A DNA stretch of 64,000 bases from Amycolatopsis sacchari. Lineage in GTDB: Bacteria > Actinomycetota > Actinomycetes > Mycobacteriales > Pseudonocardiaceae. The stretch spans positions 496,001-560,000 of the forward strand of contig NZ_FORP01000001.1 in NCBI RefSeq assembly GCF_900114035.1. Reading direction: 5' to 3'. The notes beneath the pieces were generated by a model. The model saw only the letters and a program-made list of their open reading frames with translations. It did no database searches and was not told where the DNA came from. The position numbers and the translations under genes were made by a program. This document shows, piece after piece, positions 7,141 to 35,896 of this stretch (within the stretch, counting starts at the first letter, position 1; each line of letters starts with the position of its first letter).

Positions 7141-7264
7141 GCCGCGGAGATTAGAGAGGATCACTAACCCGGGCAACACCATTACCGGCTGCGATGCCGA
7201 TCGCGCCGCAGCCGGTGCGGTGGAGGTCCCCGGCGTGCGCGGGCACGGTTTCCAGCTTGCTCGG

Positions 7265-9763: not shown

Positions 9764-11371
9764 ATGAAGATGACACAGTCGGGTACTTCGTACGACGCAG
9801 TCGTGGTGGGCGCCGGATTCAGCGGCCTGTACGCGCTCCACAAGCTCCGCGACCACTTGGGGCTCTCGGTCCGGCTCTTCGAGAAGGGCACGAGCGTCGG
9901 CGGCACATGGCACTGGAACCGTTACCCGGGAGCGCTTTCGGACAGCGAGACCTACGTCTACGCCTACTCCTTCGACGACGACCTGCTGCAGCAGCAGGAT
10001 CTGTCCACCCGGTATGCCACCCAGCCCCAGGTACTGCGCTATCTGGAGAGCGTCGTCGAGAGGAAGGACCTCGCGCGCGACATCCAGCTGGACACGACGG
10101 TCAACGCCGCCCGCTTCGACGAGACCGCGAACCAGTGGGTGATCTCGACGAGCACGGGGCAGACCGTCACCTCGCGCTACCTGGTGACGGGGCTGGGACC
10201 GCTGTCGGCCGCGAACGTCCCCGAGATCGACGGGATCGACACCTTCGACGGACAGGTCATCCATACCAGCAAGTGGCCCGAGACCCACGACTTCACCGGC
10301 AAACGCGTCGGAGTGGTCGGCACCGGCTCCACCGGTGTCCAGCTGATCACCGCCATCGCGAGTGAGGTGGGGGAGCTCACCGTCTTCCAGCGCACACCGC
10401 AGTACTGCGTGCCACTGCGGAACCGGCCGCTGGAGCCGCAGGAGATCGCCGACATCCGGAGCAACTACAAGGAGATCTGGAACTCGGTTTACAACTCGGG
10501 GCTGGGGTTCGGCTTCGTGGAGTCGGAGATCCCGGCGATGAGCGTGTCTCCTGAGCAGCGCCGCGCGATCTTCGAGGAAGCCTGGCAGAAGGGTGGCGGC
10601 TTCTACTTCATGTTCGGGACCTTCAGCGACATCGGCACCAACCCGGAGGCGAACGAGGAGGCCGCGGCCTTCATCCGCACCAAGATCGCCGAGATCGTCG
10701 ACGACCCCGAAACAGCCCGGAAGCTCACCCCCACCGACTACTACGCGCGGCGCCCCGTCTGTGACTCCGGCTACTACGCGACCTTCAACCGCGACAACGT
10801 CTCGCTGGTCGACGTCCGGGAGACGCCGATCGTGAAGGTGACGCCGCGAGGAGTGGTTCTTTCCGACGGTGCCGAGATCGGCCTGGACGTGCTGATCTTC
10901 GCCACCGGTTTCGACGCCGTCGAAGGCAGCTACCGCTCCATCGACATCCGCGGCCGTGGTGGCGTGAAACTGGCCGACCACTGGTCGGAGGCGCCGAGGG
11001 GGTACCTGGGAATGACCGTGGCCGGGTTTCCCAACCTGTTCACGATCTTCGGGCCCAACAGCAGCTTCTGCAACAACCCGCCCATGATCTCCTCGCAGGT
11101 CGACTGGATCGGGCGGACCGTCGGCTTCCTGGAGCGCAGTGAGCACACGCTGATCGAGCCGACCGGCGCGGCCGAGGACCGGTGGATGCGGCAGTGCGAG
11201 GACATCGCGAACCAGACGCTCTTCCCCAAGGTCGAGTCGTGGATTTTCGGCCACAACGTCAAGGGCAAACCCACCACCGCCCGCTTCTACATGGGTGGCC
11301 TGTCGACGTACCGGGGAATCCTGGACGAGGTCACCGAGAACGGCTACGACGGCTTCGTGCTCAGCAGCTGA
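9764..11371 (+). CDS. Baeyer-Villiger monooxygenase (cyclic ketone type)
   Basis: A 535-residue FAD- and NADPH-dependent flavoprotein that inserts one oxygen next to a ketone carbonyl to give an ester or lactone. It has the FAD Rossmann motif GAGFSG at residues 16-21, the diagnostic BVMO fingerprint F162-DGQVIHTSK-W172 (FxGxxxHxxxW), and the NADPH motif GTGSTG at 187-192. Length and FGPNSSFCNNPPM near the C-terminus resemble the cyclohexanone/cyclopentanone monooxygenase class rather than simple FMOs. A second ATG lies at 9770. It opens the catabolic island, about 50 bp before the enolase-family gene, so its product may be processed by the downstream acid and CoA enzymes. The real substrate is unknown. 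Confidence 0.92.
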   Translation: MKMTQSGTSYDAVVVGAGFSGLYALHKLRDHLGLSVRLFEKGTSVGGTWHWNRYPGALSDSETYVYAYSFDDDLLQQQDLSTRYATQPQVLRYLESVVERKDLARDIQLDTTVNAARFDETANQWVISTSTGQTVTSRYLVTGLGPLSAANVPEIDGIDTFDGQVIHTSKWPETHDFTGKRVGVVGTGSTGVQLITAIASEVGELTVFQRTPQYCVPLRNRPLEPQEIADIRSNYKEIWNSVYNSGLGFGFVESEIPAMSVSPEQRRAIFEEAWQKGGGFYFMFGTFSDIGTNPEANEEAAAFIRTKIAEIVDDPETARKLTPTDYYARRPVCDSGYYATFNRDNVSLVDVRETPIVKVTPRGVVLSDGAEIGLDVLIFATGFDAVEGSYRSIDIRGRGGVKLADHWSEAPRGYLGMTVAGFPNLFTIFGPNSSFCNNPPMISSQVDWIGRTVGFLERSEHTLIEPTGAAEDRWMRQCEDIANQTLFPKVESWIFGHNVKGKPTTARFYMGGLSTYRGILDEVTENGYDGFVLSS

Positions 11372-11421
11372 TCGTCGACCATTGACACCGACTGCACGAA
11401 TCCGGCAGCCAGGAGGCGAGT

Positions 11422-12576
11422 TTGAGCGGCCCCGATCCTGACCTCGACATCCGGACCATCGAGGCCTTCCCGATCTCCCTGCCACTGGTGGACGGCCCGA
11501 GGCTGGCGTTGGGGCGGGCCGTCAAGCGCGACGCCGTGATCGTGAAGGTCACAACGGCCGGCGGCCTCGTGGGGTACGGCGAAGCGCATCACGGACGGGC
11601 GGCGGGTGTGGTCGCGAGGATCGTCGATTCCGTTCTTCCGGACCTCGTGCTTCCCGCCTCGGCGCTGGACGTCGTCGGCATCTGGCGACGGGTGTACGAC
11701 GGCCAGCTGCGCAGCCACGGTCTCGGCGCGGCGACGGTGCTGGCGATGAGCGGCCTCGACATGGCGTTGTGGGACATCAGGGGCAAAGCGGCCCGCTGGC
11801 CTCTCTACCGCATGCTCGGAGGCACACGGCGCGACCTCCCGGCTTATGCCGGGGGCGTCGCGCTGGGCTGGCAACCCGTGCCGCGACTGGTCGAGGAGGT
11901 CGCTGCCGCCACGGCACGGGGATACCGCGCGGTCAAGCTCCGCGTGGGTGAACGGCCCGACCTGGATGCGGCACGCGTCTCGGCCGTGCGAGCGGCCGAC
12001 GAGCGGCTCACGATCATGGTTGACGCCAATACGGCCTACTCGCCGGGTGAGCTGGTCCGGGCATTGCCGTCCTTCGAGGAGACAGGCGTCGAGTGGATCG
12101 AGGAGCCGTTCGCGCCACAGGCCGTAGACAGCTACCGGCGGGCGGCCGGTCTCACCCGGATCCGGCTCGCCGCGGGCGAGAACCTGTACACACGTTACGA
12201 GTTCGCGCCGGTTCTCCGGTCTGGCTTCCTCGGGGAGGTCCAGCCCGACGTCGCGAAGACCGGTGGCGTCACCGAGTTCATGAGGATCGCCGCGCTGGCA
12301 TCGGCGGCCGGAGTGCGGGTCAGCCCGCACAGCTCCGTGACCGGGCTCAGCCAGGCCGCGACCGTCCACGTGCTGTCCGCGATCGACAACCCCGGCTTCT
12401 ACGAGTCGGACGTCACCCCCGAGCACGCCTTTCGTGAGCGGTTGACCTCGACGCCGCACGACACGAGCTCGCCCGGTACTGTCCGGGCGCTTGATGCCCC
12501 GGGGCTCGGGGTGCGCGTCGACGAGGACTTCATCGCCGCGCATCCCTTCGTCCCGGGGCCCAACTTCGTCCCGTGA
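11422..12576 (+). CDS. enolase-superfamily enzyme (mandelate racemase/muconate cycloisomerase group)
   Basis: A 384-residue TIM-barrel enzyme that removes a proton alpha to a carboxylate and then racemises, cycloisomerises or dehydrates. Active-site residues can be placed: K172 in AVKLRVG (KxR, where many have KxK), metal ligands D201 (MVDANTAY), E227 (WIEEPF) and E253 (AAGENLY), and H303 in SPHSSVTG as the second base. The start is TTG at 11422, five bases after a perfect AGGAGG, so I trust it. It follows the BVMO by 50 bp. Acid-sugar dehydratase, muconate-type lactonase or racemase are all possible; the sequence alone does not decide. Confidence 0.88.
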   Translation: MSGPDPDLDIRTIEAFPISLPLVDGPRLALGRAVKRDAVIVKVTTAGGLVGYGEAHHGRAAGVVARIVDSVLPDLVLPASALDVVGIWRRVYDGQLRSHGLGAATVLAMSGLDMALWDIRGKAARWPLYRMLGGTRRDLPAYAGGVALGWQPVPRLVEEVAAATARGYRAVKLRVGERPDLDAARVSAVRAADERLTIMVDANTAYSPGELVRALPSFEETGVEWIEEPFAPQAVDSYRRAAGLTRIRLAAGENLYTRYEFAPVLRSGFLGEVQPDVAKTGGVTEFMRIAALASAAGVRVSPHSSVTGLSQAATVHVLSAIDNPGFYESDVTPEHAFRERLTSTPHDTSSPGTVRALDAPGLGVRVDEDFIAAHPFVPGPNFVP

Positions 12577-12615
12577 ACATCAGCTCCGCCGGAAACGACG
12601 TGGCGGACATCCGAG

Positions 12616-14319
12616 CTAGCCGACCTCCACGTGGGTCGTGGGCACCGAAATTCGGTACGCCCGGATCTTGGCGTACAGCGTGGGACGGGAAACGCCCAGT
12701 TCGCGCGCGGCGACGGTCTTGTTCCCGTTGGCGCGGGTGAGCACCCTGGTGATCACCTCCGCCTCGGCTCGCTCGATGAGCGAGAGATGACGATTGGTCC
12801 AGGTCTCCAGCCGCACGCTGTCGGGCAGGTGGGCCGGATTCACCACGGTGCCGTCCGAGCTCACGACCGCGGTGCGCACGGCTTGGCGCAACTCCGCGAC
12901 GTTGCCGGGCCAGGTGTAGCGCTGGAGCACCTCCCGGGTCTCCGGCGCCAGCGGCACATCGCCGGCGAAGGTGTCGGCGAGCGGCTGGATCTCGTCCTGG
13001 CGGTTCCGGAGCGGCCCCAGGTCGATGACGGTGGCGCCGAGGGCGTCCACGATCGAGAGCAGCCACGCGGGCTGCTCCCCGCGCCCCACCGTGACGGTCG
13101 CGCCGAGCCGTGGGGGTTCGGCCGCCGCGGACAGGATGCTCGCGACCGCCCGGGCGGTGCGCTGGTCCAGGCTGTCCAGATGGGTGACGACCAAGGGCGT
13201 CGTGCGGTTCAGGGACCGGCGAAGCATACCCAGCCAGGCCTCCGGGCCGTCGGCCGCGATGTCGGAGGCGTCGAGGACCTCGGCCCCGGCTCCCAGGGCG
13301 TCGACGACCACGTGCTTCTTGCCCACCCCGGGTTCGCCACGCAGGACGACGGCACCACCGTCGCGCACCACGCGACCGACGGTCTCGCGGACCCGGGCGT
13401 GCGCCGAAGCCGTGGCGCCGTGCGGCGGCCCCGCGCTCACGGTGGGCACCGGCGTCTCGTGCTGGGGAGTGTCGAAGACCAGGAGCGCACCGAGGAGGCT
13501 CTTGCCGTCGAAGATGGCGCGGACGGTCGCGCTCCACCCCGGCGCCACCTCTATCGTGAGGTCAGGGCCGTCGACCGTGTCGAGAACGCGACCCCAGAGC
13601 ACCTCGTGCCGGAAGTTCGGGACCGGGGCGAGATGGTTGCCGATGATCAACTCGCTGTTCAGGGCGACGACCGGGTGGGCGCTGCGCGCGCGAGCGTCGA
13701 GGAACGCATCGAGCAGCCGGCGCTCGCGCGCCCCGGCCGCATCCTTCAGCGCGGTCTGGACCTCGCGTGCCATCTTCTGCACCAGCGGCGCGACGGCCGA
13801 TTCCTGGTAGTTCGGCGACCAGGTCAGGTTGATGGTGCCCAGGATCCGGTGCGTTATCGGGTCGACGACCGGGGTCGCCACGCAGTTGAACCGGTGGAAC
13901 GCCTCCCGGTAGTGCTCCTCGGACCGGACCGCGGCCGTCCGGCCGACCTCCAGCGAGGTGCCGACCGCGTTGGTCCCGATGAGCTCCTCGTTGAACGAGT
14001 GCCCGACCAGCAGGCCGGCCAGGTCGAGCTGGTGGCGCAGGCGCGAATCGGGAGCCCAGCGCCACAGGACGTGGGCGGCCCCATTCGCCATGGCCAGGCA
14101 GGTCTCGGAGTCCGCCAGCAGCTCGGCCATCTCGGTCATGAGGGGGATGGCGACCCGGGCGAAGCGGCTCTCGATGTCGATCTCGATGCGCTCGAAGTCC
14201 TGCGCCAGCGGGCTGACGCCGCTGAGTCGCGAGCGCCGCCACGAGGTCAGGATCTCTTCGCGCAGGTCAGGAGGCTCATCGCCGTGCTGGAAGGCCTCCC
14301 ATGCGAGTCGGCTGGACAT
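12616..14319 (-). CDS. AcoR-like GAF/AAA/Fis transcriptional regulator without GAFTGA
   Basis: A 567-residue regulator of the island, transcribed away from the MaoC gene. A GAF-type sensor region covers about 70-200 (FNEELIGTNAVGTSLEVGR). A degenerate AAA+ region follows with a Walker-A-like GEPGVGKK (328-335) and the C-terminal WPGNVAELRQAV (470-481). A Fis-type helix-turn-helix lies at 533-553 (NKTVAARELGVSRPTLY). The sigma-54 contact motif GAFTGA is absent, so it probably works with ordinary sigma factors. Such proteins usually activate catabolic operons on binding an intermediate. The start at 14319 has a GAGAGGTGA site; longer starts are rejected. Confidence 0.88.
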   Translation of the reverse strand: MSSRLAWEAFQHGDEPPDLREEILTSWRRSRLSGVSPLAQDFERIEIDIESRFARVAIPLMTEMAELLADSETCLAMANGAAHVLWRWAPDSRLRHQLDLAGLLVGHSFNEELIGTNAVGTSLEVGRTAAVRSEEHYREAFHRFNCVATPVVDPITHRILGTINLTWSPNYQESAVAPLVQKMAREVQTALKDAAGARERRLLDAFLDARARSAHPVVALNSELIIGNHLAPVPNFRHEVLWGRVLDTVDGPDLTIEVAPGWSATVRAIFDGKSLLGALLVFDTPQHETPVPTVSAGPPHGATASAHARVRETVGRVVRDGGAVVLRGEPGVGKKHVVVDALGAGAEVLDASDIAADGPEAWLGMLRRSLNRTTPLVVTHLDSLDQRTARAVASILSAAAEPPRLGATVTVGRGEQPAWLLSIVDALGATVIDLGPLRNRQDEIQPLADTFAGDVPLAPETREVLQRYTWPGNVAELRQAVRTAVVSSDGTVVNPAHLPDSVRLETWTNRHLSLIERAEAEVITRVLTRANGNKTVAARELGVSRPTLYAKIRAYRISVPTTHVEVG

Positions 14320-14498
14320 GCTCACCTCTCTCATCGCCACGTGTGTCTCCCAGCATGGAGCCCAGTGGCAGGAGTCACATTGTAAGAAACTTGAACGGGG
14401 AACGGGGGGCATCCACCGGCGAGACTTCCGGACGCAGGGCCGCCGCCGATCGTGCCGGCGCGGCCAGGACCCGGAGTCAGGAAGAGGTGGACCCGAGC

Positions 14499-14948
14499 AT
14501 GTCGACCAGGCCTCCCGCTCGGTTCGAAGACATCGCGTTCGCGGAGCTGCGGGTCGGAAAGCCGTACCGCACCAGCTACGAGCTCGGCCTCGATCTGGTG
14601 GCGGCTTTCCGGGCGGCCGCCGCACCTGGGCGCAACCAGATCCCGCACGTGGGCGAGCTCGTGCCGCCGGCGGTGTACTCCACCTTCCGGCCGATGTTCG
14701 AGGCACTGGGCGGACGGATGGAGCAGGGGACCATCCACACCCACCAGTCGGTCACCGTGGCCACCCCGCCGGCACGGGCCGGGGATGTGCTCGACGTCGA
14801 GGTGACCGTCGTCCGGGCCGAGGAGACCGCGGACCGCCGCCGCCTCGTCGAGGTGGCCACCGAGTACCGGCACGAGGGGCGCCGCGTGTGCAGCACCCGC
14901 AGCCGCTACCTGTGGGGGTTCTCGGCCGCGCGTGAGGACGAGCGATGA
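14499..14948 (+). CDS. MaoC-like hot-dog protein, first of a pair
   Basis: A 149-residue single hot-dog domain, FAS1-type dehydratase or thioesterase-like (ELRVGKPYRTSYELGLDLVAAF, QGTIHTHQSVTVATPPARAGD). The usual catalytic Asp/His hydratase motif is not evident, so it may be the non-catalytic partner of the next protein, as in the heteromeric MaoC hydratases known from actinobacterial steroid degradation (inference). ATG at 14499 has GAAGAGGTGG upstream. Its stop overlaps the next start by four bases (ATGA), giving translational coupling and probably equal amounts of both subunits. Confidence 0.8.
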   Translation: MSTRPPARFEDIAFAELRVGKPYRTSYELGLDLVAAFRAAAAPGRNQIPHVGELVPPAVYSTFRPMFEALGGRMEQGTIHTHQSVTVATPPARAGDVLDVEVTVVRAEETADRRRLVEVATEYRHEGRRVCSTRSRYLWGFSAAREDER

Positions 14949-15307
14949 CCACGGTCCTGCGTATGACGTTCGGCCAGGACGACGTGGACCGGTTCGGCCG
15001 GTTCAGCGGCGGTGACGGCCGAATCCACACCGACCCCGGCTACGCGCGTTCGACGCCGTTCGGCCGGACCCTGGTCCAGGGCATGCTGCTGGTCGCCCTC
15101 GTCGAGCGTGCGGTGGAGCTCGTGGAGTCCCCGGCGCGGGCTGACTCGCGGCTCGACGTCACCTTCGTCGCGCCCGTCGGGGTTGGCGACGAAGTCGCGA
15201 TCACGCACACCCGCAAGGGCACGAGTGCGCGGTTCGAAGCGACCACCAGCGCCGGGACCGTACTGGTCGCCGTCCTGCACCCGACCGAGGAGACCCAGTG
15301 GCCCTGA
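14945..15307 (+). CDS. MaoC-like enoyl-CoA hydratase, second of the pair
   Basis: A 120-residue hot-dog protein with the R-hydratase region FSGGDGRIHTDPGYARSTPFG followed by the conserved LVQGMLL helix. It should hydrate or dehydrate a CoA ester in a beta-oxidation-like step. Oddly, the catalytic Asp and His are four residues apart (D-G-R-I-H), whereas R-hydratases usually have D-x-N-P-x-H; the missing residue and Asn could change the chemistry. It overlaps both neighbours (ATGA before; a GTG start inside its end), so the three genes are one translational unit with the acyl-CoA synthetase. Confidence 0.82.
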   Translation: MTTVLRMTFGQDDVDRFGRFSGGDGRIHTDPGYARSTPFGRTLVQGMLLVALVERAVELVESPARADSRLDVTFVAPVGVGDEVAITHTRKGTSARFEATTSAGTVLVAVLHPTEETQWP

Positions 15308-17490
15308 GCGAGCTCGACCGCGGCCGCACCACGCCGCCCGCTTCGAACCTCGACGCCCTGTTCCGGCCGGCTTCGGTCGTGGTGGTCGGGGCGTCGAACG
15401 AGCGCACGAAGATCGGGGGCCGCCTGCTGAGCCACCTGCTGCGCTACGGGTACACGGGACGGCTGTACGTCGTCCACCCGTCCGACCCGGCAGTGCAGGG
15501 CGTCGCCGCGTACCGTTCGGTCGACGAGCTGCCCGCGGACAGCGCCCTGGACCTGGCGATCGTGGCAGTGCCCGCCGTGCGGGTGCCGGAGACGATCCGG
15601 TCGCTGGCCCACCGCGGTGTCCGCGTCGCCGTCATCGTCAGCTCCGGCTTCGGCGAGACGGGAGACGCGGGCCGCGCGCTCGAGGACGAGGTCCGCGACT
15701 GCGCGCGGCGCAGCGGCATGCGGGTCCTCGGGCCCAACTGTCAGGGTGTGGCGAACACGTCGGTGGGACTCGCGGCCTCTTTCTCCTCCGTGTTCGGGCG
15801 CACGGAGGAGGTGCCGGACGGGACCACAGCGGTCATCAGCCAGAGCGGGGCCATGGCCGCGGTGCTCACCGAGCTGTCCTCCGGGCACGTCGACGGTGTT
15901 CGCTACTGGGCGGCCACCGGCAACGAGCTCGACCTGACCGTGGCCGACCTCGTCGCTGAGGTCGCGACCGACCCCGGCGTCCGCGTGGTGCAGGTCTACC
16001 TGGAGAACATGCGCGCCGCCGATCGCCTGGTCCAGGCAGCACGGACCGCGCACGAGCGGGGAGCGGCTGTCCTCGTGCTGAAGGCGGGAGCGTCGGAGGA
16101 GGGCGCCCGGGCCGCCTCCTCCCACACCGGCGCCCTGGCCCAGGAGGACAAGGTGGTCGATGCGTTCCTGTCCCGCCATGGTCTGGTGCGTGCTCGGGAC
16201 GCTCGCCAGATGAGCGAGCTGGCCCGCCTGTTCGCGGGGCGGAAGAAGCCGCGGGGCAACCGCGTCGGCATCGTCACCAACTCCGGCGGCCTCGGCGTGC
16301 TGCTGGCCGACGAGGCCGCGGTCAACGGGCTCGCGATGGCCGAATTCGGCCCGGACACCCGCACCAGGCTCACCGAGACCCTGCCACCCTTCGCGGCGAC
16401 GGCCAACCCGATCGACGTGACCGCTCAATTGCTCAGCCGCCCGGAGCTGCTCGGCGCGGCGATCCGGGCGGTGGAGGCCGAGCCCGGCGTGGACGTGGTC
16501 GTCGTCGCTCTCGGCATCCTCGGCGACTACTACGATCTCGACCGGATCCTCGCCGACGTGGTCGAGCTGGACCGCCGGACCGAGAAGCTCGTCGTGGTGT
16601 GCTGGGTCGCCGGTGACGCCGCGATGCCCGGGCGGCTGGCCGGCGCCGGGATTCCGACGTACGACGACACCGCCGCGACCATGAGGGCGCTCGGCGCCTT
16701 CGTCGCCCATGCGCGGCACGTCGAGCGCGAGCGCCGCGCCGACCCGCAGACGTCCGTGCCGACCGCCCGGCTGACCGGCCCGCTGCCGCGCGCGGCGGGC
16801 GGCCCCCTGTCCGAGGCCGCGGGCAAGCGGTTGCTCCGCTCGTGGGGCCTGCCCGTCGTCGACGGCCGGCTGGCCGTGTCGGCCGACGAGGCCGCGGCGG
16901 CCGCTCGCGAGCTGGGTTTCCCGGTCGTGCTGAAGGTTTCCGCCGCCGGGCTCGCGCACAAGACAGAGCTGGGGCTGGTCGACGTCGGCATCGGCGACGA
17001 GGCCGAACTGCGGGCGGCGGCCGCGCGGATGCTGGCGGCCACCGAGGCGAACGTCCACGGAGACGGCCAGGTCGACGGGCTCCTGGTCGAGCCTTGCCTC
17101 GACGGCGGGCTCGAGATGAGCGTGGGGCTGCTGCGGGATCCGTCAGTCGGGAACGTGGTGGTCGTCGGTGCGGGCGGCACGGCGGCCGAGGTGCTCGCCG
17201 ACGTGCAGCTGCTCATCCCGCCGCTCACCACTGAGCTGGTGCGCGAGGCCATCCATCGCCTCCGCGTAGCCCCTCTGCTCCACGGCTTCCGTGGCGCACC
17301 GGCGCGTGACGTCGACAGCCTCGTGCGGTTGGTGCTCGACCTGGCAACCACCCCGGCGGTCCTGGCCGGCCAGGTGGCGTCCCTCGACCTCAATCCCGTG
17401 CTCGTGATGCCGTCCGGTCAAGGGTCGGTCGCCGTCGACGTCGCGCTCACGCCCGGACATCCCACCTCTGACATCAAGGAAGGCAGATGA
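15298..17490 (+). CDS. ADP-forming (NDP-forming) acyl-CoA synthetase
   Basis: A 730-residue single-chain enzyme joining a carboxylic acid to CoA with ATP giving ADP and phosphate. The order is: CoA-binding domain (LFRPASVVVVGASNERTKIG from about residue 20), succinyl-CoA-synthetase-like domains (VLGPNCQGVANT, SQSGAMAA), the phosphohistidine region SSHTGALAQED, and a C-terminal ATP-grasp domain (SEAAGKRLLRSWGLPVVDG, VLKVSAAGLAHKTELGLV). The GTG start lies within the end of the preceding hydratase gene. Its stop overlaps the next ATG (ATGA). In context it should activate an acid produced by the aldehyde dehydrogenase or by lactone opening. Confidence 0.92.
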   Translation: MALSELDRGRTTPPASNLDALFRPASVVVVGASNERTKIGGRLLSHLLRYGYTGRLYVVHPSDPAVQGVAAYRSVDELPADSALDLAIVAVPAVRVPETIRSLAHRGVRVAVIVSSGFGETGDAGRALEDEVRDCARRSGMRVLGPNCQGVANTSVGLAASFSSVFGRTEEVPDGTTAVISQSGAMAAVLTELSSGHVDGVRYWAATGNELDLTVADLVAEVATDPGVRVVQVYLENMRAADRLVQAARTAHERGAAVLVLKAGASEEGARAASSHTGALAQEDKVVDAFLSRHGLVRARDARQMSELARLFAGRKKPRGNRVGIVTNSGGLGVLLADEAAVNGLAMAEFGPDTRTRLTETLPPFAATANPIDVTAQLLSRPELLGAAIRAVEAEPGVDVVVVALGILGDYYDLDRILADVVELDRRTEKLVVVCWVAGDAAMPGRLAGAGIPTYDDTAATMRALGAFVAHARHVERERRADPQTSVPTARLTGPLPRAAGGPLSEAAGKRLLRSWGLPVVDGRLAVSADEAAAAARELGFPVVLKVSAAGLAHKTELGLVDVGIGDEAELRAAAARMLAATEANVHGDGQVDGLLVEPCLDGGLEMSVGLLRDPSVGNVVVVGAGGTAAEVLADVQLLIPPLTTELVREAIHRLRVAPLLHGFRGAPARDVDSLVRLVLDLATTPAVLAGQVASLDLNPVLVMPSGQGSVAVDVALTPGHPTSDIKEGR

Positions 17491-18971: not shown

Positions 18972-20331
18972 CCCCGGCCTGGCCGAGCTCCTCGATTCCC
19001 TGCCCGCGGACCGGGTGATCACGGACCCGGACCGGATGGCCGGTTACCGGTGGGACCGGGCCCGTGCCCCGGAGGTGGGCACGCCACTCGCGGTAGTTCG
19101 GGCCACCAGCACGGAGGACGTGCAGGCCGCGGTGAGGTTCGCGGCACGGCACGCGATCCCGGTCGTGCCGCGGGGTGCCGGTTCCGGCCTCTCCGGCGGC
19201 TCGTCGGCCGTCGACGGGTGTCTGGTCGTCTCGACCGAGCGCATGTGCGACATCGAGGTGGACCCGGTCACCCGGACGCTGGTCACCGGTCCCGGAGCGC
19301 TGAACGCACAGGTCAAGGCGGCTGCCGCCGCGCATGGTCTGTGGTACCCGCCCGACCCGTCGTCGTACGAGTTCTGCAGCATCGGAGGCAACGTCGCCAC
19401 CAACGCCGGCGGGCTGTGCTGTGTGAAGTACGGGGTCACCACCGACTACGTGCTCGGCCTGACCGTCGTGCTTGCGGACGGCACGGCGGTGGAGCTGGGA
19501 GGCCCGCGGCTGAAGGATGTCGCGGGCCTCTCCCTCACGAAGCTCTTCGTCGGCAGCGAGGGCACCCTCGGGATCGTCACCCGGATCGTCCTGCGGCTGA
19601 TCCCGGCGCAACGCATCCCGTCGACACTGGTGGCGACGTTCGCCGCCCTCGATGCGGCGGCCGAGGCGGTCTTGGCCATCACCCGGAGGATGCGGCCCTC
19701 GATGCTCGAATTCATGGACAAGGTGTCGATCAACGCCGTCGAGGACGTGACACGGATGGGGCTCGACCGCGGCGCCGAGGCCATGCTGGTCATCCAGACC
19801 GACGAGCCTGCCGGGCACGCCGCCGTCGAGATCGCGGACATGTCCCGGCTGTGTGAGGAACACGGCGCCACCGAGGTCTTCTCGACCGATGAGGCGGAGA
19901 CCGGCGAGATGTTCGTGACGGCCCGCCGCATGGCGATCCCCGCCGTCGAGCAGAAGGGCTCCCTGCTGCTCGAGGACGTGGGCGTGCCGCTACCGCGGCT
20001 GGGTGCCCTGGTCCGGGGCATCGAGGAGATCTCACGCGCCCGGGACATCGTCGTCGCCGTGATCGCCCACGCCGGCGACGGGAACACCCACCCCCTCGTG
20101 GTCTTCGACCCCACCGACCCGGGGCAGACCGCACGTGCCCAGGCCGCTTACGGCGAGATCATGGACCTGGCCATCGCGCTCGACGGCACGATCACCGGTG
20201 AACACGGGGTGGGGCGCCTCAAGAAGCCCTGGCTCGGCTCCTATCTCGGCGACGACGCGCTGGCTCTGAACCACAGGGTGAAGCAGGCCTTGGATCCGCA
20301 GGGAATCCTCAACCCCGGAGCCGTTTTCTGA
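18952..20331 (+). CDS. FAD-linked 2-hydroxyacid oxidase/dehydrogenase, GlcD-like
   Basis: A 459-residue VAO/PCMH flavoprotein with the FAD PP-loop PRGAGSGLSGG, the second FAD segment PDPSSYEFCSIGGNVATNAGG, and a C-terminal FAD-oxidase domain ending with HAGDGNTHP and GEHGVGRLKK. Relatives oxidise glycolate, D-lactate or D-2-hydroxyglutarate to the 2-keto acid and pass electrons to the respiratory chain. No iron-sulfur partner (GlcF) is nearby, so it probably uses quinone or another acceptor alone. GTG at 18952 overlaps the aldehyde dehydrogenase gene by 20 bases. It is the last gene of the operon and is followed by a strong terminator. Confidence 0.88.
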   Translation: MIPSHADPGLAELLDSLPADRVITDPDRMAGYRWDRARAPEVGTPLAVVRATSTEDVQAAVRFAARHAIPVVPRGAGSGLSGGSSAVDGCLVVSTERMCDIEVDPVTRTLVTGPGALNAQVKAAAAAHGLWYPPDPSSYEFCSIGGNVATNAGGLCCVKYGVTTDYVLGLTVVLADGTAVELGGPRLKDVAGLSLTKLFVGSEGTLGIVTRIVLRLIPAQRIPSTLVATFAALDAAAEAVLAITRRMRPSMLEFMDKVSINAVEDVTRMGLDRGAEAMLVIQTDEPAGHAAVEIADMSRLCEEHGATEVFSTDEAETGEMFVTARRMAIPAVEQKGSLLLEDVGVPLPRLGALVRGIEEISRARDIVVAVIAHAGDGNTHPLVVFDPTDPGQTARAQAAYGEIMDLAIALDGTITGEHGVGRLKKPWLGSYLGDDALALNHRVKQALDPQGILNPGAVF

Positions 20332-20341
20332 CGACGCCGCA

Positions 20342-20376
20342 GCGGGTGGCTCGCGGCCATACGGCGAGCCACCCGC
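20342..20376. terminator. bidirectional hairpin terminator
   Basis: A perfect 13-bp inverted repeat, GCGGGTGGCTCGC and GCGAGCCACCCGC, with a 9-base loop, lies between two convergent genes (GlcD-like oxidase and SDR). No long T run follows, as is common in high-GC actinomycetes. Confidence 0.8.
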
Positions 20377-20424
20377 TTCCGTGCTTCAGGAGCCGGGGAC
20401 CGCGGTCCACGACCCCGCGCGGCG

Positions 20425-21264
20425 TCACTTGATGAGGACTCCGGCGTCGATCGGGAGGGTGATGCCGGTGACGTAGCGAGCGGCATCACTGGCCAGGTAG
20501 ACCACGGCCTCGGAGACGTCCGAAGCTTCGACCCACGGGATCGGCATGACGTGGAAGTCGTGGTACGGCGAGCTCGGGTCGAGCGCGTCCTCGCGCGTGG
20601 GGTGCTCGAGGTGGGCGAGGAAGATCTTCCGTATCACGTCGTTGTCGATCATGTCTGTGTCCACATTGGTCGGACAGACCACGTTGACGCGGATCCGCTC
20701 CTGGCCGAGCTCGACCGCCAGGGTCCTGGCGAGGCCGACCACGCCGTGCTTGGCCGAGGTGTAATGGCCGAGCTGCGGCACCGCCTTGAGCCCGGAGACC
20801 GAGCTGGTGACGATGATCGAGCCGCCCTCGCCCTGCTCCCGGACGATCGGCAGGGACGCCTTGAGGGTGTGCCACACACCGGTGAGGTTGATGTCGATCA
20901 TCTGCTGCCACATGAGCGGCTCGATCTCCAGCGCCGGGGCGATGGTGCAGATACCGGCGTTGGCGACCACCACGTCGAGGCGGCCGAGCTCGGCCACTCC
21001 GGCCTGAACGGCTTGCTCGAGCCGGGCGAGGTCACGCACGTCGGCCTTGGTGGCGAAGATGCGCCGGCCGAGCGCCTCGACGGCCCGTACGGTCTCGTCC
21101 AGGTCCGCCTTGGTGGCCAGGGCGTAAGGCACCGACTCCACGTCCTCGCAGATGTCCACCGCGATGATGTCCGCGCCCTCGCGCGCCAGGTGCAGGGCGT
21201 GGCTCCGTCCCTGTCCGCGGGCGGCACCGGTCACGAAAGCCACCTTTCCGTCCAGTCTCCCCAT
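20425..21264 (-). CDS. mycofactocin-type SDR alcohol dehydrogenase
   Basis: A 279-residue short-chain dehydrogenase with TGAARGQGRSHALHLAREGADIIAVDICED, catalytic Ser in TSSVSG, and YTSAK. Between beta-2 and helix C it has the insertion YALATKADLDETVRAVEALGRR, which marks the mycofactocin-coupled (nicotinoprotein, carveol dehydrogenase-like) subfamily. Such enzymes keep NAD(H) bound and hand electrons to the redox peptide mycofactocin. The likely job is oxidation of a secondary alcohol to a ketone, a natural substrate for the BVMO. ATG at 21264 has GGGAGAG upstream. It is divergent from the second SDR, suggesting shared control. Confidence 0.9.
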   Translation of the reverse strand: MGRLDGKVAFVTGAARGQGRSHALHLAREGADIIAVDICEDVESVPYALATKADLDETVRAVEALGRRIFATKADVRDLARLEQAVQAGVAELGRLDVVVANAGICTIAPALEIEPLMWQQMIDINLTGVWHTLKASLPIVREQGEGGSIIVTSSVSGLKAVPQLGHYTSAKHGVVGLARTLAVELGQERIRVNVVCPTNVDTDMIDNDVIRKIFLAHLEHPTREDALDPSSPYHDFHVMPIPWVEASDVSEAVVYLASDAARYVTGITLPIDAGVLIK

Positions 21265-21430
21265 CACGTCTCTCCCGTCTTTGGTCGATCGGATCGATCA
21301 CGACGCTAGGTGTGCGGGTCGCTGACGGCACTGTTGCGATTTCTTACGTCTGAAGCTCTTTCGCCGCTGCGATTCTTCCGGTGTCCGCCGCCACGGCGCA
21401 ACGAGGCACGTAGCAGAAGGGACCAGGAAC

Positions 21431-22306
21431 GTGGGACGACTTGCTGGAAAGGTCGCACTGATCACCGGAGCCGCACGCGGCCAGGGACGCGCACACGCCG
21501 TCCGGCTCGCCGAGGAGGGCGCGACGATCATCGCGACCGACCTGTGCGAGCAGCTGGACAACGTCGGCTACCCGCTCGCGACTCCGGCCGACCTCGAGGA
21601 GACGGCTCGTTTGGTCGAGAAGCAGGACCAGGCCTGCCTCGCCGTCAAGGCCGACGCTCGCGACGCGCAGCAGATGGCCGCCGTCGTGGCCCAGGCCATC
21701 GCGGAGTTCGGGAAGATCGACATCCTGGCCGTCAACCACGGGATTCTCATCGCGGAGCCGTGGGACCAGTGGACGGAACACGACTGGAACACGGTCATCG
21801 ACACGAACCTGAACGGCGTCTGGAACGCCACCCGGCCGGTGTTGCCGCACATGGTCGAACAGGGGTCCGGGTCGGTCATCTTCACCGCGTCGGTCTCCGG
21901 GCTGCTGGCCCAGGTCGGCATGCTGCCTTACAACGCCTCCAAACACGGAGTGGTCGGCCTGATGCGCTCGCTGGCCGCCACCATGGGGCCGCACAACGTG
22001 CGGGTGAACACCGTCTGTCCCGGCAACGTCGGATCGCCGATGCTGCTCAACGACATGATCGCCAAGATGTTTTCCGGCGGTGCAGCGGACGCCACGATCG
22101 ACGACATCCGGTTCCCGGCGCAGGCCATGAACCTCCTCCCCGTGCCGTGGGTCGAACCGGTCGACGTCTCGAACGCGGTGCTGTTCCTCGCCTCGGACGA
22201 GGCCCGCTACATCACCGGCACCAATCTCACCGTCGACGCGGGCTTTTTCACCACCCCTCGTGGCGTCCCGGCGATCGCCGCCGAGCGTCTGGCCGCACTG
22301 GACTGA
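21431..22306 (+). CDS. mycofactocin-type SDR alcohol dehydrogenase
   Basis: A 291-residue paralogue of the divergent SDR, with TGAARGQGRAHAVRLAEEGATIIATDLCE and the same subfamily insertion (GYPLATPADLEETARLVEKQDQ). Catalytic Ser is in TASVSG and Tyr/Lys in YNASK; the usual NAG is NHG. The GTG start follows an AGGA site. It heads an operon with the ABC importer genes, so the imported compound is likely its substrate or a close precursor. The two SDRs may act on different hydroxyls or stereoisomers. No mycofactocin biosynthesis genes are in this window. Confidence 0.9.
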   Translation: MGRLAGKVALITGAARGQGRAHAVRLAEEGATIIATDLCEQLDNVGYPLATPADLEETARLVEKQDQACLAVKADARDAQQMAAVVAQAIAEFGKIDILAVNHGILIAEPWDQWTEHDWNTVIDTNLNGVWNATRPVLPHMVEQGSGSVIFTASVSGLLAQVGMLPYNASKHGVVGLMRSLAATMGPHNVRVNTVCPGNVGSPMLLNDMIAKMFSGGAADATIDDIRFPAQAMNLLPVPWVEPVDVSNAVLFLASDEARYITGTNLTVDAGFFTTPRGVPAIAAERLAALD

Positions 22307-22349
22307 CCGCCGGATCTCTTCCCGGTGCCCACAACCTCAGGGAATCACC

Positions 22350-23324
22350 ATGAAATTCTCCTACCGGGTGGCAGCCGTCGGCGCGTCACTCCTGCTGGCC
22401 TCCGCGTGTGCCGCCACGGCCGGCTCGAACAAGAAGGACGGCGACTACGTCATCGGCGTGACCACCCTGTTCTCGTCGCCGATCATCAACGAGTACACCC
22501 GCGGCATGCAGGAGGCCGTGCAGGGGACCGGCGTCACCCTCAAGATCAACACCTCCGACAGCGACGTTTCCAAGGAAGCCTCGCTCATCGACACCTACAT
22601 CACCCAGCACGTCGACGCCATCCTGGTCGACCCGATCTCCGCCAACGGCTCCGTCCCGGCGATCCGGCGGGCGGTGAACGCCGGCATAACGGTCCTGTGT
22701 TACGACACCTGCATCGAGGACAGTGCCCGGCAGCAACTGATCAAGGGCTACCTGACCTCCGACCAGGAGGGGCTGGGACGCACCGCCGGTGAGGCCGCGG
22801 CGAAATACATCACCGAGAAGCTCGGCGGTCATGCCAAGATCGGGATTCTCAGCTGCGACGCGAGCTACGCCATCTGTGGCCAGCGTCAGAAGGGTTTCGA
22901 GTCCGCGCTGGCGCCCGGCTCGTACGACATCGTGGCCAAACAGGAGGGTTACGTCGTCGACAAGGCCAAGCCACTGGCCTCCGACATGCTCACGGCACAC
23001 CCCGAGCTCAACCTCATTTTCGGGCAGAACGAGGGCAGCGCGATCGGCGCCGCGCTGACCGTCAAGTCCGACCAGCGCGCCGGCGTGCACGTCTTCGGAA
23101 TCGACATCACCACGGTCATCGCCGATTTGATGCTGCAGCCCGACCCGGCGCTGCTGTTCACCGCCGGACAGGACGCGGGCAAGCTCGGCGCCGACGCCGT
23201 CCGCGCCACCGTCGCCGTGCTGAACGGGACGCCGCCGGTCAAGGAGACCCAGCTCATCGCCGCGGTTCCCTATTCCGCCGACCACCCGGAGACCCTCCGT
23301 GCCTACATCGATGAGCGCAAGTAG
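22350..23324 (+). CDS. ABC importer substrate-binding lipoprotein (CUT2/RbsB-like)
   Basis: A 324-residue periplasmic-binding-protein-type lipoprotein anchored outside the membrane. A signal peptide ends in the lipobox LLASAC. The mature part is a type I binding fold (YVIGVTTLFSSPIINEYTRGM, DAILVDPISANGSVPAI, NLIFGQNEGSAIGA), the class binding ribose, galactose, inositol, rhamnose and AI-2. ATG at 22350 has a GGGA site. The next gene starts within its last codons. The ligand cannot be deduced; in this setting it may be a cyclitol, a glycoside or another polar ring compound. Confidence 0.88.
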   Translation: MKFSYRVAAVGASLLLASACAATAGSNKKDGDYVIGVTTLFSSPIINEYTRGMQEAVQGTGVTLKINTSDSDVSKEASLIDTYITQHVDAILVDPISANGSVPAIRRAVNAGITVLCYDTCIEDSARQQLIKGYLTSDQEGLGRTAGEAAAKYITEKLGGHAKIGILSCDASYAICGQRQKGFESALAPGSYDIVAKQEGYVVDKAKPLASDMLTAHPELNLIFGQNEGSAIGAALTVKSDQRAGVHVFGIDITTVIADLMLQPDPALLFTAGQDAGKLGADAVRATVAVLNGTPPVKETQLIAAVPYSADHPETLRAYIDERK

Positions 23325-24858
23325 CGCCCCGGGCACGCTCCCGGCCATCTCGGTCCGGGGGGCGAGCAAGGCCTACGGTTCACTCCAGGCGCTGCGTGAT
23401 GTCGACCTCGAGGTGGCGCCCGGTGAGGTCCGGGCTCTCCTCGGGCTCAACGGGGCGGGCAAATCGACACTGGTGAAGATGCTCAGCGGTGTGGTCGTCC
23501 CGGATGCCGGGGTGATCCGCGTTGCCGGGGCCGAAACCGTTTTCCGTTCCCCGCACCACGCTATGGGCTGCGGGGTCGCCACCGTCCATCAGGAGCTGAG
23601 TCTGGTACCGGGGCTCAGCGTGGCCGACAACGTTTTCCTGGGACGGTGGCCGACGCGGCCCGGGTCCGTCGTCGACCGCCGCGCCCTGCAGGATGCGGCG
23701 AAGCAGGTGCTCGAACGCGTGCACTGCTCGGTGGCTCCGGCCACGCGGACCGGGAAGCTGTCCATCGGTCAGCAGCAGCTCGTGGAGATCGCGCGGGCCG
23801 TGGGGCGGGAGTCACGGGTCCTGATCCTCGACGAGCCGACCAGCTCCCTGTCTGCGCAGGAGGCGGACGACTTGATCGCGCTCGTGAAGCGGCTTGCGGC
23901 GACGGGCGTGGCGGTCATCTACATCTCGCACCGCATGGACGAGATCCACTGTGTCGCGGATTCGGCGACCGTGCTGCGGGACGGTCAGCTGGTCGGCACG
24001 GTGGCGATGGCGGAGACCACCTCGAGAGCGCTGTTCGGGATGATGACCGGACACCGGCAGCTCGAACCCGGCGAGGCGCCCGCTCGTCCGGTGGACTCGC
24101 CGGTGGTGCTGAAGGTGCGCGGCCTGCGCAGCGACGCACTCCGCGGAATCTCCTTCGACCTCCGCGAAGGGGAGCTGCTGGGCGTGGCCGGGGTACTCGG
24201 CTCCGGCCGCACTAGCCTGCTCGAGGCGCTGGCCGGCGCGCGGCCGAGCACGGGTGCGGTCACGGTGAACGGCGTCTCCGCCGAGCGCCGCACCGTGGGC
24301 CGGATGAGGCGCCACGGAGTCGGGCTCGCGCCGGAGAACCGCCGTACGCACGGACTGGCGATGTCCCTGCCGATCCGGAGCAACATCCTGATGGGATGTC
24401 TGCCCCTCGTGAGCCGGGCGGGCGTGGTCTCGTCGGGCTCCGGGGGGCGCCTGCTGCGGCAGACGATGGAGCGTCTCAGGGTGCACTGGCGGCTCAACGA
24501 TCCGCCGTCGACCCTCAGCGGTGGCAACCAGCAGCGGGTGGTGCTCGGGCGCTGGCTCGCGAACGGGGCCACCGTGCTCCTCCTGGACGAGCCGACGCGT
24601 GGCGTCGACATCCGGGGCAAGCGCGAGATCTACGACCTGCTGCTGGAGCTGTCCGCTTCCGGCGTCAGCACCATCTTCGCCACGTCCGAGTTCGAGGAGC
24701 TGTACCGGCTCGCCACGCGTTCGCTGGTGCTCCGGCACGGAGAACTCGTCGGGGACGTCGACTTGCGCGACACCGGCGAGGAGCAGCTGATGATGCTCGC
24801 GATGGGCGAGGAAGGACTCTCACTACCGACGAGGACGGGGACCGACAATGAAGACTGA
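23299..24858 (+). CDS. ABC importer ATPase, two nucleotide-binding domains (RbsA-like)
   Basis: A 519-residue duplicated ATPase of the CUT2 group. Domain 1 has GLNGAGKST, the signature LSIGQQQLVEIAR and Walker B LILDEPTSSL. Domain 2 has a degenerate Walker A (GVLGSGRTS), signature LSGGNQQRV and LLLDEPTRGVD. This asymmetry is normal for RbsA/AraG proteins. GTG at 23299 has GGAG seven bases upstream and overlaps the binding-protein gene; an ATG at 23311 is the alternative. Its end overlaps the permease start. Confidence 0.92.
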   Translation: MPTSMSASSAPGTLPAISVRGASKAYGSLQALRDVDLEVAPGEVRALLGLNGAGKSTLVKMLSGVVVPDAGVIRVAGAETVFRSPHHAMGCGVATVHQELSLVPGLSVADNVFLGRWPTRPGSVVDRRALQDAAKQVLERVHCSVAPATRTGKLSIGQQQLVEIARAVGRESRVLILDEPTSSLSAQEADDLIALVKRLAATGVAVIYISHRMDEIHCVADSATVLRDGQLVGTVAMAETTSRALFGMMTGHRQLEPGEAPARPVDSPVVLKVRGLRSDALRGISFDLREGELLGVAGVLGSGRTSLLEALAGARPSTGAVTVNGVSAERRTVGRMRRHGVGLAPENRRTHGLAMSLPIRSNILMGCLPLVSRAGVVSSGSGGRLLRQTMERLRVHWRLNDPPSTLSGGNQQRVVLGRWLANGATVLLLDEPTRGVDIRGKREIYDLLLELSASGVSTIFATSEFEELYRLATRSLVLRHGELVGDVDLRDTGEEQLMMLAMGEEGLSLPTRTGTDNED

Positions 24859-25888
24859 CCTGGCCGAGCCCGCCGCCACCGAACTTGTGCGGCCTGCACG
24901 CCCGAGCTTGCTCGCGCGCATCAAGCATCTGGATCACATCGGGCTGCTGACGGCGACGGTCCTGCTCTTCGTGGTCCTGTCGCTCTGCGCGCCGTACTTC
25001 ATGACGACCAAGAACCTGCTCAACGTGCTGCAGCAGTCCGCGTTCGTCGGTGTGATCGCGCTGGCGATGACCTTCGTGATCGTCGCCGGAGAGATCGACA
25101 TCAGCGTGGGGTCGGCGATGGCGTTCGCCTCCTCCTTGTTCGGGGTTCTGGTCACCGACCACGGGTGGTCGCTGCCGCTGGCCGCACTCGCGGTGCTGCT
25201 CGTGGGTGCGGTCACCGGGCTGCTCGCGGGGCTGGTACGTGTCTGGTTCGACGTGCCGTCCTTCATCGTCACGCTGGCGCTCTTCAGCATTTTGCGCGGT
25301 CTCGCCCAGATGCTGACCGACGCCGTGCCCGTGCAGATCTCCAGCGCGGGGTTCAGCCAGTGGGGCAACGGCGACGTGTTCGGCGTACCGGTGCCGGCCG
25401 TCATCATGTTCCTGTTCCTCGCCGTGAGCTGGTTCGTGCTGACCCGCACGACCTTCGGCCGCTCGGTCTTCGCGGTCGGCGGGAACCCGGACGCGGCCCG
25501 GCTCTCCGGCATCAGCGTTGGCCGCATCCGCGCGCTGGTGTTCGGCCTCACCGGAGCGGCCGCGGGGCTGGCCGGCGTCCTGCAGTCCGCGCAACTGAGC
25601 TCAGGGGACTCCACCATCGGGGTGGGCGCTGAGTTCACGGCGATCTCCGCGGTCATCATCGGCGGTGCGAGCCTGTTCGGTGGCCGGGGTTCGGTGGTCG
25701 GAACCTTCCTGGGGGTCATTTTTCTCGGACTCCTCAACAACGGGATGGTGCTGCTGGACCTCAGTTCGTATGCGCAGGGTGTGGCCCGCGGTGTCATCGT
25801 CCTGCTGGCTGTCGTCATCAGCACCCGGCGGGAGGGCGTGCGCCTGCGCACTCTGCTCGGGTTCGTGTTCCGGCGCGCCCGATCCTGA
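24848..25888 (+). CDS. ABC importer permease (RbsC-like)
   Basis: A 346-residue membrane protein with about eight to ten hydrophobic segments and the CUT2 permease signatures VIVAGEIDISVGSAMA and GNPDAARLSGISVGRIRAL, where the cytoplasmic loop meets the ATPase. A single permease gene means a homodimer, as in ribose uptake. It ends the operon SDR, binding protein, ATPase, permease, and is followed by a strong hairpin. Confidence 0.92.
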   Translation: MKTDLAEPAATELVRPARPSLLARIKHLDHIGLLTATVLLFVVLSLCAPYFMTTKNLLNVLQQSAFVGVIALAMTFVIVAGEIDISVGSAMAFASSLFGVLVTDHGWSLPLAALAVLLVGAVTGLLAGLVRVWFDVPSFIVTLALFSILRGLAQMLTDAVPVQISSAGFSQWGNGDVFGVPVPAVIMFLFLAVSWFVLTRTTFGRSVFAVGGNPDAARLSGISVGRIRALVFGLTGAAAGLAGVLQSAQLSSGDSTIGVGAEFTAISAVIIGGASLFGGRGSVVGTFLGVIFLGLLNNGMVLLDLSSYAQGVARGVIVLLAVVISTRREGVRLRTLLGFVFRRARS

Positions 25889-28394: not shown

Positions 28395-28426
28395 ATGTTG
28401 TGACGCGCAACATTGCTCGATCGAGC
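28395..28426. promoter_or_regulatory. inverted repeats in the LLM/GH3 divergent region
   Basis: Two nearby dyads: ATGTTG-N7-CAACAT (28395-28413) and the perfect 12-bp palindrome GCTCGATCGAGC (28415-28426). They lie between divergent starts at 28265 and 28512 and are plausible binding sites for a regulator of the glucosidase gene. No regulator gene is adjacent. Confidence 0.4.
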
Positions 28427-28511
28427 GGCTCCACCCACCCCGACGGGCCGGCGCACTTCTGGCGCGGCCCGACCCGGTCCTGCACGCACCCTGCAACGGA
28501 GGAGGATTCGT

Positions 28512-34461: not shown

Positions 34462-34781
34462 GGGCGGCTCCTGGCAGGACGTGCGGGCACGACGGCGGAA
34501 AAAGCCGTGCGCGAAAAGGGATTTCGGATTTTCCGGCGAGCGCCGGTGAGATCACTATGACCGCCCCCGCCGCCCGGCAGCAACAGCAGTCACGCGAACG
34601 AGTAGCGGATTGCCTTGGTGCGCAAGGGGTTTACGCAGCGGTGCGGGTTTCGCCCATCCGGTCGGTGCGGGCGGCCCGGACGAGTGGTGGGGATCGCCCC
34701 CTGGTTTTGCCCGTGGTGCCGGTGTTATCTAGCGCGACGGGCGCCGGCACGCCCGGAACCGTCGTTTCGCGAGGAGGCACC
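34462..34781. other. divergent promoter region of the terpene genes
   Basis: A 320-bp gap between the cyclase (minus) and the prenyl synthase (plus). An in-frame extension of the synthase runs back to 34557, but has no ribosome site and no family sequence, so I treat it as non-coding. The region is slightly less GC-rich than its surroundings. I could not define a convincing -35/-10 pair. Confidence 0.45.
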
Positions 34782-35876: not shown

Positions 35877-35896
35877 CCGCCGAGGAAGGAGACCGA

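Follow-up and report, generated by a model that had tools for sequence, protein, structure and literature searches.

The question raised by this locus is whether a monooxygenase-led set of degradation genes and a sugar-type importer, which lie side by side in the genome of Amycolatopsis sacchari, act on one substrate or are unrelated neighbors. The block in question spans positions 9764–25888 of the window, by which we mean the whole 64,000-nucleotide stretch analyzed (C32:496001–560000, contig NZ_FORP01000001.1, in a 7.59-Mb genome of 72 contigs). Our tentative answer, to which we give a little less than even weight, is that the block is a catabolic island of mosaic make-up, probably acquired, that serves the breakdown of a small and polar alicyclic compound with hydroxyl groups, either cyclitol-like or a hydroxylated cyclohexane. 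It contains thirteen open genes in five strand blocks: a Baeyer–Villiger monooxygenase (BVMO) and an enolase-superfamily enzyme (+), an AcoR/DhaR-like regulator (−), MaoC1, MaoC2, an ADP-forming acyl-CoA synthetase (ACS), an aldehyde dehydrogenase (ALDH) and a GlcD-like enzyme (+), a short-chain dehydrogenase/reductase (SDR1, −), and finally SDR2 with the substrate-binding protein (SBP), ATPase and permease of a CUT2 importer (+). Long open frames are also present on the opposite strand in this GC-rich DNA; the named genes were chosen by coding-type GC per codon position and by family matches, the families being assigned by Pfam/NCBIfam. All the genes named in an earlier sequence-only reading of this DNA are present as open reading frames. 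Its description of coupled operons holds for two of the blocks. MaoC1/MaoC2, MaoC2/ACS, ACS/ALDH and ALDH/GlcD overlap by 4, 10, 4 and 20 bp, and in the importer operon a 43-bp gap between SDR2 and SBP is followed by overlaps of 14 bp (SBP/ATPase) and 11 bp (ATPase/permease). BVMO and the enolase-family gene are 50 bp apart. Because the regulator and SDR1 are on the minus strand, the block as a whole is not a single operon.

In the pathway that we propose, the CUT2 importer would bring in the ring compound, a mycofactocin-type SDR would oxidize the ring alcohol to a ketone and pass the electrons to mycofactocin, and the BVMO, of the cyclohexanone monooxygenase (CHMO) type, would convert the ketone to a lactone. 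The lactone would then open spontaneously or by a hydrolase encoded elsewhere, after which ALDH and the GlcD-like enzyme would oxidize the resulting aldehyde or 2-hydroxy acid, and an alpha-hydroxy acid would be dehydrated or epimerized by the enolase-superfamily enzyme. The ADP-forming synthetase would form a CoA ester, and the hot-dog pair, MaoC1 and MaoC2, would handle it. The catabolic character claimed in the sequence-only reading is supported by the gene content of the block. Judging from the enzyme families, its logic of alcohol to ketone by an SDR and ketone to lactone by a CHMO-type BVMO is probably sound, and the ADP-forming synthetase in the block is consistent with the CoA activation it foresaw.

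The signature of type I BVMOs is an FxGxxxHxxxW(P/D) fingerprint with two GxGxxG motifs, and the window BVMO carries both GxGxxG motifs and the fingerprint FDGQVIHTSKWP. Its best PDB match is the Thermocrispum CHMO (725 bits); other CHMO entries score 662–673 bits and steroid and phenylacetone monooxygenases 475–495 bits. We compared its surroundings with 52 loci of BVMO relatives, reading up to 20 kb around each (three loci are shorter than 13 kb). The set takes in 24 of the 25 places elsewhere in the genus and 30 of the 31 outside it, omitting G017 at 2.13 Mb and C2 of G251, which mirrors G235; the places outside the genus come from 297 genomes of the family, with four candidates scored per genome, and the counts are lower bounds. 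A chn-type alpha/beta hydrolase (at least 150 bits) is found in 23 of the 52 loci, 22 of them also with a regulator match and one, L141, at only 42% identity. Mycofactocin-type SDRs (at least 180 bits) are found in seven, none of which has the hydrolase, compared with 23 of the 45 others; at the G014 locus, L147, the hydrolase match is 70 bits, below the 150-bit threshold. In a tree of 66 sequences (the window copy and every one of the 65 matches from the chosen loci; characterized CHMOs not included), the window BVMO falls in a clade (100/93) with 32 members. Hydrolase-bearing loci account for 27 of them, three of these sharing one Pseudomonas plasmid locus. The window BVMO is alone there on a long branch (0.78), so its exact position is unsure. 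Adjoining this clade is a pair made up of the BVMOs of G204 and a Cnuibacter plasmid, each of which has an ADP-forming synthetase as neighbor. The window BVMO thus seems, from its sequence, to have descended from cyclohexanone-type stock, and now stands without the hydrolase and with mycofactocin SDRs. Its pairing with ALDH recurs in G013, G002 and G017 (BVMO 58–59% and ALDH 58% identical).

Both SDRs pass the curated TIGR03971 cut-off of 300 bits (Table 1), and MftC, the mycofactocin maturase and the only mft gene searched, is encoded in the genome at C34 (653 bits, cut-off 265). SDR2 is operonic with the importer, which ties a carveol-dehydrogenase-type enzyme to it; with the maturase in the genome, this bears out the mycofactocin link that had been suggested. 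In the parts of PMC5264612 and PMC3023750 available to us, TIGR03971 enzymes appear to retain NAD and to depend on an external partner, non-exchangeable bound NAD being given as a property of such SDRs (PMC5264612). The island therefore resembles the known mycofactocin-coupled SDRs, carveol dehydrogenase included, in cut-off and maturase, and differs in that SDR2 leads a CUT2 operon, an arrangement that does not appear in the available parts of PMC3023750 and PMC5264612.

The importer is a complete CUT2 system, with a Peripla_BP_4 binding protein, an ATPase of two ABC domains and a BPD_transp_2 permease. None of the CUT2 equivalog models among the matches listed (for the ATPase, the best 25 of 191) reached its cut-off. 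Its binding protein has no ortholog in 18 genus-mates, the best match in the genus being 40% identical (G001 and G012). Among complete importers the nearest are those of G001, G012 and G010 (permease 56–59%, ATPase 47%, binding protein 32–33%), which adjoin Dak1, Dak2 and DeoC/LacD-aldolase genes, as checked by Pfam in G001 and by reading in G010. Relatives on Rhizobium plasmids (37–41%) lie beside aldose epimerase and GMC oxidoreductase genes and, in one of the two, also galactonate dehydratase. These sugar- and DhaK/DhaL-type neighbors suggest that the ligand is small and either a polyol or sugar-like. Taken together, these sugar/polyol operons resemble the island in binding protein (32–41%) and permease (43–59%) and differ in that no BVMO, mycofactocin SDR or ADP-forming ligase was seen in the stretches read. 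The glycosylated terpenoid offered as a substrate in the sequence-only reading finds no support here, with no glycosidase inside the block and importer relatives that keep company with small-sugar genes. Outside the block, a GH3 glycosidase gene (28413–30431) lies 2.5 kb past the permease, behind minus-strand genes. Two more PF13407 proteins are encoded 16–21 kb downstream of the island, at 41730–42785 (−) and 46532–47596; the latter, a second CUT2-type binding protein, scores higher against PF13407 (213 bits) than any other protein of the genome.

In the regulator we find an AAA lid and a Fis helix-turn-helix (HTH) only, and the best NCBIfam model, DhaR, scores 113 bits against a cut-off of 551. 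Both GAFTGA and a G-x4-GK(S/T) Walker A motif are absent, so the protein does not qualify as a sigma-54-dependent activator; sigma-54-independent AcoR-like regulators occur in actinomycetes. It likely activates the divergent MaoC-ACS-ALDH-GlcD operon. As for the two MaoC-like proteins of the sequence-only reading, MaoC2 is confirmed by PF01575, whereas MaoC1 is MaoC-like only through its position and a low-confidence predicted fold. MaoC1 has no credible Pfam match (one at chance level, E up to 1) and no NCBIfam match (longer frame); the best Foldseek chains for its predicted fold (pLDDT 60) are HadAB/MaoC at E ∼4e-5, which lends weak support to the assignment, and hhalign pairs it with MaoC2 at a probability of 7%. 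The ligase has no ortholog in 18 genus-mates (best 41%). Among the 297 family genomes its best matches come from two members of another genus, G225 (59%) and G308 (49%), and there the MaoC1-MaoC2-ACS trio is kept, with identities in G225 and G308, respectively, of 57% and 47% (ACS, tblastn), 39% and 47% (MaoC1), and 43% and 38% (MaoC2). No BVMO, ALDH or importer of the island kind occurs around the trio in the ∼56 kb read in G225 or the ∼20 kb read in G308, and the BVMO relatives of both genomes sit on other contigs. The trio is a portable module.

Do the BVMO half and the importer half meet elsewhere? The ligase and binding protein were searched in 61 genomes, the BVMO in 19, and the ligase and BVMO in the 297 family genomes, where the best three or four candidates per genome were scored; this last search did not extend to the importer half. 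An importer of the CUT2 class joins a BVMO, a mycofactocin SDR and a CoA ligase most cleanly in G014 (C22, L147 1198–13134, minus strand), in an uninterrupted single-strand run of BVMO, SnoaL-like, mycofactocin SDR, luciferase-like, SDR, CUT2 ATPase, permease, binding protein, SnoaL-like, AMP ligase, thiolase and OB-fold genes. Looser sets are found in three other places. About 32 kb of G204 holds a BVMO, several mycofactocin-type SDRs, an ADP-forming synthetase, an AcoR-like gene and a CUT2 set with a mycofactocin-type SDR just upstream of it, at 26 kb from BVMO to CUT2 ATPase. A Cnuibacter plasmid has a BVMO, an ADP-forming synthetase, ALDH, an AcoR-like regulator and CUT2 genes within ∼17 kb, its SDRs being ordinary. 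Plasmid pLP1 of Rhodococcus qingshengii VT6 (L234 6235–24816), one of six plasmid SDR loci opened from 45 records found, combines CUT2 genes with two mycofactocin SDRs, a MaoC pair, thiolase/OB-fold genes, a ligase and two acyl-CoA dehydrogenases, with no BVMO, and resembles steroid side-chain modules. Among the remaining five, the R. ruber locus includes a BVMO relative and no CUT2 ATPase match. The G014 and pLP1 clusters are like the island in joining CUT2 genes and mycofactocin SDRs to CoA-dependent degradation genes (with a BVMO in G014) and unlike it in their CUT2 subtype, AMP-type ligase, thiolase/OB-fold genes and, for pLP1, acyl-CoA dehydrogenases; they are not orthologous. The co-occurrence of the two halves thus has a collinear precedent and these looser sets behind it; what it lacks is an orthologous block, a matching CUT2 subtype and more than weak enrichment.

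A number of observations weigh against the island as one pathway. No orthologous island turned up in a second genome in the searches above; a contig scan gave 12 ligase relatives at 30–37% identity, and plasmid searches gave only relatives below 60%. For the SDRs, 105 above-cut-off matches collapse into 93 loci, two of which belong to the genome itself; among the 40 best-scoring of the other 91, all in genus-mates, five have a CUT2 ATPase within ∼10 kb. About two would be expected, with P = 0.02, 0.05 or 0.11 at 15, 20.4 or 25 importers per genome, an expectation based on 396 PF13407 matches in 19 genomes, LacI-type proteins included. At all five, the CUT2 set differs in subtype from the window importer (ATPase 34–37% vs 47%, permease 27–33% vs 56–59%), the higher permease values being those of the window permease with DhaK/DhaL-linked importers. 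Within the block the halves are linked only by adjacency, and SDR1 meets GlcD head-on at 93 bp. No shared promoter word stood clearly beyond shuffles at any of the seven lengths tried, and co-regulation of the halves is not supported. The observed 10-mer was reached in 44–45 of 300 shuffles of two kinds, the 18-mer in 11–16, and words of the five other lengths in 69–172. The pathway itself has gaps. None of the thirteen block genes is a lactone hydrolase by Pfam/NCBIfam, and lactone opening is the weakest point of the proposal; nor is there an acyl-CoA dehydrogenase within the block. The D-x4-H motif, catalytic in MaoC (R)-hydratases, is absent from both MaoC1 and MaoC2. Because of this, and because Gly replaces the aspartate in three of three aligned MaoC2 sequences, we do not call the hot-dog pair hydratases.

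Much of this could be accommodated if the block held two unrelated neighbors, a cyclic-ketone unit at 9.8–20.3 kb (BVMO, enolase family, MaoC-ACS-ALDH-GlcD and the AcoR-like gene) and a sugar/cyclitol uptake-and-oxidation unit at 20.4–25.9 kb (SDR1, SDR2 and the importer), which we regard as quite possible, if short of probable. Besides the orientation of SDR1 and the want of a common promoter word, the company of the importer's nearest relatives, either Dak1/Dak2-aldolase genes or aldose epimerase, GMC oxidoreductase and galactonate dehydratase, speaks for such a division, and the 36 PF13407 matches of the genome mean that chance adjacency is not rare. A CUT2 ATPase (at least 150 bits) is present in one of the seven BVMO loci with a mycofactocin SDR and, in the stretches read, in none of the 45 without; G014 enters both this tally and that of the SDR loci, and other places overlap too, so the two are not independent. 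On C1 of G006 (L117 6875–15432; L118 9145–19791), loci picked for close SDR and CUT2 matches and outside the five-of-40 count, SDRs of the mycofactocin kind stand with CUT2 genes, GMC, Gfo/Idh/MocA and xylose-isomerase-like genes and no BVMO match. These SDRs are 44% and 48% identical to SDR1, one above and one just below the TIGR03971 cut-off; mycofactocin-linked sugar or cyclitol catabolism is possible there, and the SDR-importer pairing is thus also found in what appears to be plain sugar/cyclitol catabolism. Against two separate units, mycofactocin SDRs occur in seven of the 52 BVMO loci when ∼0.8 would be expected (a rough estimate in which the density seen in the genus is extended to all loci), and such units are hard to square with the collinear run of G014 and with a ligase and a binding protein that both lack orthologs in 18 genus-mates. 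We conclude that the association of CUT2 importers with mycofactocin SDRs is real but modest, and that the window importer is of the sugar/polyol kind.

The missing hydrolase suggests a comparison with the chn clusters of Rhodococcus sp. YL-1 pYLL2 and Polaromonas JS666 plasmid 2. These share with the island a CHMO-type BVMO (53–60%), an SDR alcohol dehydrogenase, a regulator and, except in the JS666 stretch shown, an ALDH. The island differs from them in having no lactone hydrolase, no chn Zn-alcohol dehydrogenase and a different ALDH, and in adding mycofactocin SDRs, the enolase-family and GlcD genes, the ADP-forming synthetase, the hot-dog pair and the importer. That the BVMO half is a broken-up chn pathway for a simple cycloalkanol, with its hydrolase in trans and the importer incidental, strikes us as unlikely. 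The clade of the BVMO would fit, cycloalkanols should on general knowledge require no importer, and the genome has nine chn-type hydrolase relatives, the best at 43% and 40%, on other contigs. None of these is close, however: at 20 other loci, the hydrolase that accompanies a related BVMO is 75–99% identical to the hydrolase query; the chn-type ALDH and the chn 6-hydroxyhexanoate Zn-alcohol dehydrogenase (none found in the block by Pfam) are missing as well, and enolase-family, GlcD and CoA-ligase genes would be unexpected on the way from cyclohexanol to adipate. Upstream of the block, an apparently incomplete Zn-dehydrogenase (7182–8315, −) matches glutathione-independent formaldehyde dehydrogenase at 286 bits (cut-off 637) over model positions 42–339 of 397 and is closest to a type other than the chn enzyme.

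The enolase-superfamily enzyme is of the His-containing mandelate-racemase kind, with KLR, VDAN, EEP, GEN and PHS all present; this subgroup has KxK or KxR, Asp-Glu-Glu metal ligands and a His on the opposite face. Its closest solved relative is 3bjs (363 bits), which we take to be the Polaromonas JS666 plasmid 1 protein to which it is 46% identical. In NCBIfam the sugar-acid dehydratase models match it best, though none reaches its cut-off. Two annotated plasmid relatives (46–53%) lie, one with hydroxyacid dehydrogenases and ALDH and one beside a carbohydrate importer, and near two more, in unannotated plasmid records, an ALDH relative is ∼3 kb distant. Could this enzyme open the BVMO lactone by beta-elimination, in the manner of a muconate cycloisomerase run in reverse, and so supply an unsaturated acid to the synthetase and hot-dog pair? 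Such a step would account at once for the missing hydrolase, the missing acyl-CoA dehydrogenase and the ligase/hot-dog trio, and the BVMO gene is the immediate neighbor; yet the muconate cycloisomerase match, at 111 bits, is far under its cut-off of 335 and is bettered by the arabinonate dehydratase model (171 bits, also below cut-off). The His-containing residue set, the hot-dog pair without its hydratase motif and the hydroxyacid or carbohydrate-importer setting of the annotated relatives tell against it too, and elimination would require a lactone with a carboxylate beta to its oxygen, a feature unproven here. We consider it very improbable. Just as little credence goes to the broader idea that CUT2 importers are a recurring unrecognized partner of mycofactocin SDRs in CoA-dependent alicyclic/terpenoid-type degradation, with an enolase-superfamily enzyme replacing the lactone hydrolase by elimination.

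If the island was acquired, few marks of transfer are left. There is no tRNA within the window and no boundary repeat of note was found around the island, while GC dips modestly at 9–12 kb and 20–24 kb. Genes of the left flank have a match in 13 of 19 genomes (at least 75% in 12 of the 18 others) and those of the right flank in 14 of 19 (at least 75% in 10 of the 18 others, a split G017 copy not counted). The flanks are ∼1 Mb apart in G006 and ∼2 Mb apart in G001, so no empty site can be read from these two. A 10-mer and an 18-mer had been favored as a shared regulator site with 15 shuffles and were no evidence after 300. A sigma-70 scan gave 0 sites, and a terminator scan 3 against 4.5 in shuffles. 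Elsewhere in the window, a possible terpenoid locus lies near the island at 33379–36523, where a terpene synthase gene (−) adjoins genes for a polyprenyl synthetase and an ABC ATPase (+), and 4195–6240 (−) encodes a large kumamolisin-like peptidase with a pro-kumamolisin activation domain and a weak S8 match. The features of the block are collected in Table 1.

Table 1. Genes and intergenic regions of the block, in window coordinates.
Feature	Position	Strand	Evidence
Type I BVMO, cyclohexanone-monooxygenase type	9764–11371	+	fingerprint, PDB match, tree
Enolase-superfamily (mandelate-racemase-like) enzyme	11422–12576	+	PF13378 195 bits, PF02746 54 bits, residues
AcoR/DhaR-like activator	12616–14340 (end at 14340 approximate; start uncertain)	−	AAA lid and Fis HTH
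Intergenic, divergent regulator vs MaoC-ACS-ALDH-GlcD operon	14341–14498		geometry
MaoC1, hot-dog-like partner protein without Pfam family	14499–14948	+	predicted fold, position
MaoC2, MaoC-domain protein, altered hydratase motif (SGGDGRIH)	14945–15307	+	PF01575 44 bits
ADP-forming acyl-CoA synthetase (ACS), both halves on one chain	15298–17490	+	Pfam/NCBIfam
Aldehyde dehydrogenase (ALDH)	17487–18971	+	Pfam/NCBIfam
GlcD-like FAD-linked 2-hydroxyacid oxidase/dehydrogenase	18952–20331	+	Pfam/NCBIfam
SDR1, mycofactocin type, carveol-dehydrogenase-like	20425–21264	−	TIGR03971 402 bits; PDB carveol dehydrogenases
Intergenic, divergent SDR1 vs SDR2	21265–21430		geometry
SDR2, mycofactocin type, leads importer operon	21431–22306	+	TIGR03971 367 bits
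CUT2 substrate-binding protein (SBP), lipobox-like sequence	22350–23324	+	PF13407 131 bits
CUT2 ATPase, two ABC domains	23311–24858	+	Pfam/NCBIfam
CUT2 permease	24848–25888	+	PF02653 153 bits

Every family in the island is already known, and the combination is akin to alicyclic-alcohol catabolic clusters. In the literature available to us, which covers few subscription journals, we found no CUT2 importer described in company with mycofactocin SDRs or with a BVMO. Should the two halves act together, CUT2 systems would have to be counted among the importers of alicyclic carbon sources, and a dedicated import route would be linked to the mycofactocin redox pool. The island also offers a test case for the re-use of a cyclohexanone-type BVMO without its usual lactone hydrolase.

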